The notes beneath the pieces were generated by a model, which worked only from the letters and a program-made list of their open reading frames with translations, ran no database searches and was not told the DNA's origin. A DNA stretch of 64,000 nt, taken from contig CANPUE010000013.1 in assembly GCA_947577185.1 (NCBI GenBank), forward strand, positions 1-64,000, in the 5' to 3' direction. The translations under genes and the position numbers were made by a program. This document shows positions 50,373 to 52,408 of the stretch, piece after piece; the stretch's first letter is position 1; each line of letters starts with the position of its first letter. The DNA is from an uncultured Lachnospiraceae bacterium (GTDB taxonomy: Bacteria; Bacillota; Clostridia; Lachnospirales; Lachnospiraceae).

Positions 50373-50900
50373 TTAATTGCCGAAATTTCTGTACTGCAGA
50401 CGGATCTTATCTGCGATCAGCGCAATAAACTCGGAATTGGTCGGTTTTCCTTTCCCCGTATTGATCGTATAGCCAAACAATGCATCCAGCGTTTCCATTC
50501 TGCCTCTGGACCATGCTACCTCGATTGCGTGTCTTATGGCGCGTTCCACCCTGCTTGGAGTCGTCTGATACTTACCAGCGATTGTAGGATAGAGAACTTT
50601 CGTGATCGACCCAAGCATTTCCACGTCTTCCACGGACATCATAATCGCCTCCCGTAAATACTGATAGCCCTTAATATGAGCCGGAACACCGATCTCATGT
50701 ATCATATTGGTGACATCTTTTTCCAGATCATGCAAAACAGGCTCCTTTACGGCATCCTGTATCACGACCGGTACATCCTCCTGCTTCCCTGAAGGTACTG
50801 TTATCATAATCTGAAATTCTTTATCCCCGCTCATCAGATTGTTCAGAATCTGATAGACTTTCTCATTATCTCTTGTTACGGTTAGATTCAACTGTTCCAT
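50373..50900 (-). CDS. spo0A: Spo0A with truncated receiver domain
   Basis: The C-terminal 115 residues are a full Spo0A DNA-binding domain: [50 protein letters not shown] and [17 protein letters not shown] are nearly as in Bacillus. The N-terminal part is only about 60 residues. Residues 1-40 align with the first strand, helix and second strand of the receiver, then the rest is missing. The phospho-acceptor Asp, the conserved Thr and the Lys are absent, and the DD pair is reduced to RDN. The protein has 175 residues against about 265. The location after spoIVB is canonical. It cannot be a phosphorelay target. The isolated DNA-binding domain of Bacillus Spo0A is constitutively active. Confidence 0.9.
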
Positions 50901-50927
50901 AAAAATCACCATGCCTTTCTCTCAGCC

Positions 50928-50990: not shown

Positions 50991-51076
50991 TTGTCCTGGC
51001 AACATCACGCTAACAATATTATAAACAATGGTGAAGCCCTATGGAATATTTAGGCATCGCACAATCTCATAAACCG

Positions 51077-52345
51077 TCACTGTACCAGCATATTTTCAAT
51101 AAAAATTCCGTACCCGCTCGTCGCATCCTGTACCAGTACATGCGTTACCGCGCCGACCAGTTTCCCGTTTTGCAAAATGGGACTGCCGCTCATTCCCTGA
51201 ATGATGCCGCCGGTCAGGGTCAGAAGTTCTTCATCCGTGATCTTAATAACAAGCCCCCTGTTGATGTTGTCGTCTTCGAGATGGAGTTCCTGTATTGTGA
51301 TGTCATACAGCTGCGGTTCTCCTGTAACGGAACAGATGATCTGTGCCGGACCGATCTCCACCTCCTGCTTTAGCGCGATGGGAACTGCCTCATGAGATGT
51401 CTGCTGCACGACGGCATCGTCACAGACCCCGAAAATCCCTTCCGCCGTATTCTCCATGATCTCACCGATGATATTCTCATTGTCATATTCGATATACCCT
51501 GTGAGTTCTCCCGGCGAGCCGCCTTTTCCCTTCGTGATGCCGACAATTTCCGTCTTGTACAAAGTACCTTCCTCAAGCCGCATGAGCGTGGACGTATCAA
51601 CATCATTGATGCCGTGCCCAAGCGCGCCGAAACTGTCATCCGTATTGACATAGGTCAGCGTACCGATCCCCTGTGCGTTATCTCTGATCCAGATCCCAAG
51701 CTTCCACTCCCCGCTCTGGTTGCCTTCCGGCTTTATCTTAACTTCTGTCGTTTCCTCCCCCCGCCGCAGGGTCATGATCATCTCTTCCCCCGCCGAGTCT
51801 GCTATCATCTGCACGAACTGTTTTTTATTTTCTACTTTTTCCCCGTTTACGTCCAGAATATAATCTCCGGTCTGTAAAATATACTTTGCGGGTGAGATAG
51901 TCTCCCCGCTTTCGTTTTCAAATTCTCCGATACCGACTACCAGAACGCCGTCCGTCTTGACATAAATACCGACCGGCATCCCCGATGGAATCAGCGTCTT
52001 ATCCTGTATCACCTGAATGTCAACACTCTTATAAGGAAGGATCCCGAACAGTTTCAGATTGATCTTGTAATTATCAATCTGATTCGCCCTGACCGTGACC
52101 CCTCTGGAAAAATTGACATGAAGGCTTTCCACCCCTGTGGAGAGGCTTTCCACCGCTTCCTGATAGATTTCACCGGACACCGGAACATGAAAATCCAGTT
52201 CCTGCTCGACTCCCGCACGGATCTTGATCGTGGAAGGCACCTTTTTCCAATAATCAATGTACACTGCCAAAAACAGCGAGAACAAAGCGGCAGCCAACAG
52301 GATATATAAAAATCTGCGATAATTCTTTAATTTAGCGTCCGTCAT
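51077..52345 (-). CDS. spoIVB: SpoIVB serine peptidase
   Basis: A 422-residue secreted peptidase that signals from the forespore to activate pro-sigma-K processing. One membrane helix is at about 12-30. A PDZ domain (about 100-200) contains AKYILQTGDYILDVNGEKVE. The peptidase has the catalytic His in GALGHGINDVD and the Ser in GMSGSPILQNG. The start at 52345 is chosen because AAAGGA stands 8 bp upstream. It is intact, unlike its neighbour spo0A. Confidence 0.95.
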   Translation of the reverse strand: MTDAKLKNYRRFLYILLAAALFSLFLAVYIDYWKKVPSTIKIRAGVEQELDFHVPVSGEIYQEAVESLSTGVESLHVNFSRGVTVRANQIDNYKINLKLFGILPYKSVDIQVIQDKTLIPSGMPVGIYVKTDGVLVVGIGEFENESGETISPAKYILQTGDYILDVNGEKVENKKQFVQMIADSAGEEMIMTLRRGEETTEVKIKPEGNQSGEWKLGIWIRDNAQGIGTLTYVNTDDSFGALGHGINDVDTSTLMRLEEGTLYKTEIVGITKGKGGSPGELTGYIEYDNENIIGEIMENTAEGIFGVCDDAVVQQTSHEAVPIALKQEVEIGPAQIICSVTGEPQLYDITIQELHLEDDNINRGLVIKITDEELLTLTGGIIQGMSGSPILQNGKLVGAVTHVLVQDATSGYGIFIENMLVQ

Positions 52346-52408
52346 TTCCGTGTTCCTTTCCCAATGCAGTAAAAAGCTTACGCCTGTCCTTTCTACCGCC
52401 ATGAATAA

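Follow-up and report, generated by a model that had tools for sequence, protein, structure and literature searches.

In Bacillus and Clostridia, Spo0A (TIGR02875) combines a receiver domain (REC) with a DNA-binding domain (Spo0A_C). The isolated DNA-binding domain of Bacillus subtilis Spo0A is active without phosphorylation and binds DNA constitutively. Phosphorylation control of a response regulator is lost in the aspartate-less receivers, which retain the receiver domain (PMC4395418). A survey describes gut Lachnospiraceae as rich in sporulation genes, including some that “had lost spo0A” (PMC11170972). No description of a natural receiver-less Spo0A was found among the open-licence papers listed, judged by titles and abstract openings.

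The gene described here lies on a 64,000-nucleotide stretch of DNA from an uncultured Lachnospiraceae bacterium (GCA_947577185.1, contig CANPUE010000013.1; hereafter, the window). It is a receiver-less spo0A encoding 175 aa at 50373..50900 on the minus strand. The open reading frame runs over 50373-50912 (minus strand, 179 aa), with an upstream in-frame ATG at 50912 and a conserved inner ATG at 50900; the latter is taken as the start codon, and the same start is aligned in 55 receiver-less sequences. The 175-aa product consists of a 38-residue receiver remnant, a linker of ~21 residues, and a complete Spo0A_C. A sequence-only reading of the window had described the DNA-binding domain as intact, and the Pfam match (50403..50714, minus strand; 156 bits against a cut-off of 25) does cover positions 1-104 of 104. 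No receiver domain was matched in the window protein by Pfam, with matches shown up to E 10, and TIGR02875, which scores 206.1 bits (above its cut-off of 200), aligns over model positions 138-259 of 262 alone. Both reading and alignment bear out that the protein lacks the phospho-acceptor Asp as well as the conserved Thr and Lys, while the frame stays open; with the phospho-acceptor site gone, the proposed loss of phosphorelay input is supported too. Over an 18-residue recognition-helix stretch, the protein matches the solved Spo0A domains 1fc3 and 1lq1 residue for residue. The locus is the canonical one, as had been stated: the gene adjoins spoIVB (S55 peptidase; 51077..52402, minus strand; TIGR02860, 374 bits), its usual upstream neighbor, with recN and argR beyond. 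In many relatives, spoIVB was not seen in the ~6 kb taken upstream.

The window gene thus has the locus, the DNA-binding domain, and the recognition-helix stretch of Spo0A from Bacillus and Clostridia. Unlike those proteins, it is without a receiver fold or phospho-acceptor, exact 0A boxes before the gene are much rarer, a new promoter element stands in their place, and a clade-specific paralogue exists (see below). Assignment to the Spo0A equivalog (TIGR02875) was considered feature by feature. The DNA-binding domain and the spoIVB neighbor are there, and the receiver with its phospho-acceptor Asp is not. Presence alongside sporulation genes holds in the family (SpoIVA in 26/26 receiver-less genomes); none was seen in the window genome, which is 67% complete. 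Judging by its sequence, the window gene is a Spo0A ortholog minus a defining domain, and we did not apply the canonical response regulator class. The aspartate-less receiver class was rejected as well, as the receiver core itself is gone (73 residues in an intermediate form, G288) and not just the Asp. Pseudogene was a third class rejected, given that the frame is open in 56/60 genomes of the genus and that pN/pS stays low (DNA-binding domain, 0.024; remnant, 0.137).

The remnant (50787..50900, minus strand) agrees well with the “about 40” receiver residues noted initially: 31 of its 38 residues (1-31) are homologous to the beginning of the Spo0A receiver. Full-length Lachnospiraceae Spo0A receivers align to these residues in register from their start, at an hhalign probability of 97.1% (96.4% leaving out G288), for which the best of 200 column shuffles reached 5.4%. 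These figures come from trimmed alignments; with uncut alignments the value was 94.9%, yet 1/60 column-shuffled controls hit 99.75%. The remnant ends in E-F-Q-I-x-I-T-V-P, a stretch with at least 90% conservation over 35 aligned members that is unlike the full-length receivers compared. Pooled over 31 genus sequences, pN/pS is 0.745 in the variable linker (50724..50786, minus strand), against the far lower values of the two flanking parts, all three being rough because synonymous sites are close to saturation. Codon comparison thus indicates that the remnant and the DNA-binding domain are under purifying selection and that the linker is fast-evolving. Selection on the remnant was not foreseen by the sequence-only reading, nor were the paralogue and the shared promoter element described below.

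AlphaFold2 was confident for the DNA-binding domain alone and predicted the remnant at low confidence, as would be expected of a segment that needs association in order to fold. The remnant probably serves in self-association or in binding of a partner. One conceivable partner is a receiver that was separated rather than lost: a phosphorylated stand-alone receiver would act in trans on the short Spo0A, perhaps docking at the remnant. No receiver-like gene adjoins spo0A in the window, and we consider such an arrangement distinctly unlikely, although the remnant is conserved despite being too short for a receiver fold, and these genomes contain many response-regulator-like TIGR02875 matches.

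The truncation had been taken for a property of this strain. In fact, it is common to the genus and to 24 sampled genera, which fall on one side of a branch in an RpoB tree. The genus sample comprised 60 genomes, window genome included, all of which have a Spo0A_C match (60/60). In 56 of them there is a short spo0A with an open frame of 175-226 aa that leaves no room for a full receiver; 31 of the genus sequences were read individually. The remaining four are G045, in which the short spo0A is split over two frames, and G016, G023, and G051, where the second paralogue alone was found. The full-length second spo0A that the sequence-only reading had allowed for was not found, as canonical full-length Spo0A occurs in 0/60 genus genomes; one of them (G038) encodes a distant receiver protein in which Spo0A_C is matched weakly, at 79.5 bits. 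Nor did we see any sign of the assembly artefact that had been raised as an alternative, which is ruled out because the same short form recurs in so many assemblies.

Beyond the genus, we sampled 298 genomes of the family that are at least 90% complete, excluding the window's own. Spo0A_C was found in 207/298, and the receiver-less form in 26 genomes of 24 genera, so the question of whether the deletion is clade-wide can be answered in the affirmative. The 26 include G087, which has an in-frame TAG in spo0A, and exclude G195, in which the contig stops within the gene and whose RpoB groups with those of full-length genomes. Three of the receiver-less genomes (G130, G141, G244) also have distant receiver proteins that end in a divergent Spo0A_C-like part. 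Among 80 named loci, 23 are receiver-less (L062-L084), all from Lachnospiraceae or unclassified according to title or taxonomy; all except one are labeled as MAG or uncultured, and three as Acetatifactor. Across 393 Clostridia genomes, the first residue of the remnant was reached, among the matches listed, only in five receiver-less Lachnospiraceae genomes. On this sampling, the window gene is a real, clade-wide Spo0A variant whose defining input domain is gone and whose output domain and genetic surroundings are retained.

An RpoB tree of 50 genomes places the receiver-less genomes in one block, which also contains two genomes without Spo0A (G062 and G161), and G288 branches next. When the Spo0A-less genomes are left out, a single branch separates 28 receiver-less rows from 16 others (SH-aLRT 98.9, obtained by a quick method with no bootstrap). 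These 28 rows represent 24 of the 26 receiver-less family genomes plus four genus genomes; G141, whose RpoB was not matched, and G059, which was not entered, are absent. The position of G288 at the edge of the branch suggests how the receiver was deleted. Compared with full-length proteins, its Spo0A has a single in-frame gap of 73 residues (32-104), under a mild gap-extension penalty that favors one long gap. Strand 1 and helix 1 of the receiver are thereby joined directly to the K-P motif and the last receiver helix. The latter piece is recognized in G288 with an hhalign probability of 85.9% (best of 100 shuffles, 15.3%), and is unrecognizable in the other receiver-less proteins (3.1%). Most simply, the receiver core would have been removed once, by an in-frame internal deletion.

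Does the branch still sporulate? The sequence-only reading offered two possibilities, that sporulation had stopped or that Spo0A is differently controlled. The second is the likelier of the two, and the first fares poorly in view of the retained SpoIVA, SpoIIE, and SpoIIAA. SpoIVA occurs in all 26 receiver-less family genomes (the G223 copy has an internal stop). SpoIIE was matched in 57/59 genomes searched (33/33 genus genomes that are at least 90% complete and 24/25 other receiver-less genomes; missing from the window genome, G000, 67% complete, and from G244) and SpoIIAA in 30/30, 25 of them receiver-less. All SpoIIE matches (0/59 passing) and all receiver-less SpoIIAA matches (0/25) are under the NCBIfam cut-offs, and that for SpoIIE is passed in just 10/298 family genomes, most full-length genomes failing it too. 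In gene content, then, the receiver-less branch is one that retains sporulation genes.

The possibility that sporulation was given up and spo0A survives as a relic draws on a few individual genomes: the two Spo0A-less members of the RpoB block (G062, G161), the TAG codons in both spo0A and spoIIE of G087, the split gene of G045, and the 67% complete window genome, in which neither SpoIVA nor SpoIIE (nor the second paralogue) was found. We regard it as very improbable, because the pN/pS values of 0.024 and 0.137 speak against it, as do SpoIVA in 26/26 and SpoIIAA in 25/25 receiver-less genomes. By contrast, SpoIVA is missing in 19 of the 20 Spo0A_C-negative genomes listed.

Several side observations concern these genes. 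SpoIIE is short in the branch (L352-L381), with main matches that begin at model position 410 or later and frames of 386-495 aa; short SpoIIE also occurs in some genomes with full-length Spo0A. The TAG in G087 spo0A (L190, L216) is at a Gln of the relatives, and together with the one in spoIIE may reflect decay or amber read-through. Three genomes (G092, G174, G227) have SpoIVA yet no Spo0A_C match, either having sporulation genes without Spo0A or being incomplete assemblies. Against a functional sporulation Spo0A stands a published predictor, which scored an Acetatifactor MAG as non-sporulating; the 24 Lachnospirales MAGs in the same set all received that score (PMC12536801).

A further Spo0A_C-only protein of ~126 aa (paralogue B) is found in 58/60 genus genomes, the exceptions being G019 and the window genome, which has one Spo0A_C gene and is 67% complete. 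In the family, two or more Spo0A_C matches were found in each of the 26 receiver-less genomes. In a Spo0A_C tree, 35 second copies form one clade with an SH-aLRT of 94, slightly below the 95 mark; the G223 copy (L398), being too divergent, is placed outside it. Full-length Lachnospiraceae, like the receiver-less branch, also have extra short Spo0A_C paralogues (open frames of at least 113 aa), and the 12 such proteins placed in the same tree lie outside the paralogue B clade.

The second Spo0A_C-only gene lies in an exopolysaccharide cluster (L142-L161, L302-L321, L394-L398) and has its own predicted sigma-A-like promoter. In 40/41 loci, including L398, it has one or more of ten polysaccharide reference genes nearby; these ten were drawn from eight of the tested loci (the sole hit of L317 is its own gene). 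For example, the Pfam neighbors at L143 are RmlD, GDP-mannose dehydratase, an epimerase, three family-2 glycosyltransferases, and a sugar transferase, with two further neighbors to which no Pfam name was given. Unlike paralogue B, the extra paralogues of full-length genomes are beside such reference genes in 0/13 cases (the 12 placed in the tree and one of G165; loci of 3-5.5 kb).

In the receiver-less branch, control of spo0A appears to have shifted to its promoter. Within 300 bp before spo0A, an exact 0A box is present in 26/49 full-length versus 6/55 receiver-less genomes, related genomes not being independent. (The full-length promoter set has 55 loci from 49 genomes, and the 0A-box count was redone per genome.) In the genus, a different element, GCGATnnCTnA, occurs upstream of spo0A in 29/31 genomes, accompanied at nearly constant spacing by a -10 resembling TATAAT, compared with 0.13 expected, 0/55 full-length loci, and a background of 0.020 per kb. 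In the window it is GCGATGCCTAA (51050..51060, minus strand), just 5′ of the -35 position, and the predicted -10 hexamer, TATAAT (51018..51023, minus strand), lies 37 nt past the element start. The window holds three copies of the element at no more than one mismatch, of which the spo0A copy alone has a -10 at the right distance. As the element was spotted by eye in genus promoter alignments and counted afterwards, the other receiver-less genomes and full-length loci provide a more independent test. There, the strict form precedes spo0A in 3/24 other receiver-less genomes, and a relaxed form precedes spo0A in 15/24 and the paralogue in 8/25, versus 7/55 full-length loci; 5/49 full-length genomes, too, show a loose match (GCGAT with a -10).

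The same element is upstream of the paralogue in 12/16 genus loci, and an exact 0A box in 5/16 (expected 0.32); among other receiver-less genomes the counts are 2/25 and 3/25, respectively. When the spo0A, paralogue, spoIIE, and spoIIA regions of genus loci were scanned, the complete element with a -10 was seen only before spo0A and the paralogue. The two promoters may share it by descent from a duplication, and even then, its persistence would suggest that it is used.

Taken together, we think it rather likely that this is an orthologous, functional spo0A with a deleted receiver core, the activity of which is set by transcription rather than by phosphorylation. Like the isolated B. subtilis domain, the short Spo0A would need no phosphate to bind DNA and would probably be freed from an inhibitory receiver in the same manner; the decision to sporulate would therefore depend on its abundance. 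This abundance would be governed at a sigma-A-type promoter by way of GCGATnnCTnA, which in the genus would also serve the domain-only paralogue of the exopolysaccharide cluster. Unlike the laboratory truncation of B. subtilis, however, the short Spo0A is natural, clade-wide, under selection, and equipped with a conserved 38-residue remnant.

The upstream regions of early sporulation genes bear on which targets the short Spo0A may have. A paired element, TGTCnnA-N23..25-TT(T/C)GACA, precedes spoIIE in 10/17 other receiver-less versus 5/10 full-length genomes, a pattern picked after viewing the aligned or scanned promoters and then counted on those same loci. Since the receiver-less genomes outside the genus keep it in 10/17 cases, direct control of spoIIE by the short Spo0A is plausible in the wider branch; the window's genus, with 0/23, is outside that claim. 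Plain exact 0A boxes before spoIIE are near chance (2 versus 0.82 expected in 30 loci), and the lack of any exact 0A box before spoIIA in 30 loci is uninformative, as five full-length loci are among them. In the 23 genus loci, a different conserved stretch, AATAATnnGGACAACC..CATATATTGAT, replaces the paired element before spoIIE; we take it to resemble a mother-cell sigma promoter.

The replacement before spoIIE in the genus could mean that the short Spo0A was retained in a different role (stationary-phase or matrix control, for instance), with sporulation begun by a different regulator (e.g., paralogue B or another factor). The promoter element that ties spo0A to the exopolysaccharide-linked paralogue would fit such a role. 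Nevertheless, the recognition-helix stretch is unchanged, the other receiver-less genomes retain the spoIIE element (10/17), and receiver-less spo0A and SpoIVA co-occur in 26/26 genomes, so we rate this change of role as unlikely.

Returning to transcriptional control of a functional spo0A, a bolder version, which we offer tentatively and with more doubt than belief, is that in one lineage of gut bacteria phosphorylation control of a master regulator of cell fate was swapped for a purely transcriptional switch. Two receiver-less Spo0As, one for spores and one in the exopolysaccharide cluster, would be linked by binding of paralogue B or Spo0A to GCGATnnCTnA in both promoters, and feedback would couple the spore and matrix decisions. 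If the spore program does run without a phosphorylation gate, the branch would show in nature whether such control can be dispensed with altogether, and G288 provides an intermediate step in the rewiring of a two-component output. Receiver-less spo0A also affects the prediction of sporulation from gut genomes, and short spo0A genes might account for part of the genomes reported as having lost spo0A in the survey (PMC11170972).

Spo0A_C domains occur in other unusual contexts in this family. A very divergent Spo0A_C-like output domain is found in sporadic receiver proteins (L154, L465-L468), which apparently form a family separate from Spo0A. A third Spo0A_C type is present in some receiver-less genomes (L464, L470, L471, L473), and in two of these (L464 and L471) the protein has a remnant-like N-terminus, ..LQIILSYDAP... 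In other Lachnospiraceae, Spo0A genes occur as tandem pairs (L186, L189, L343), and, at least in L186, the receiver of one copy is degenerate, with Asn-Pro in the position of the phospho-Asp. Finally, G111 (L348 / L393) has, beside a full-length Spo0A, another whose receiver was truncated separately, a possible case of parallel loss.
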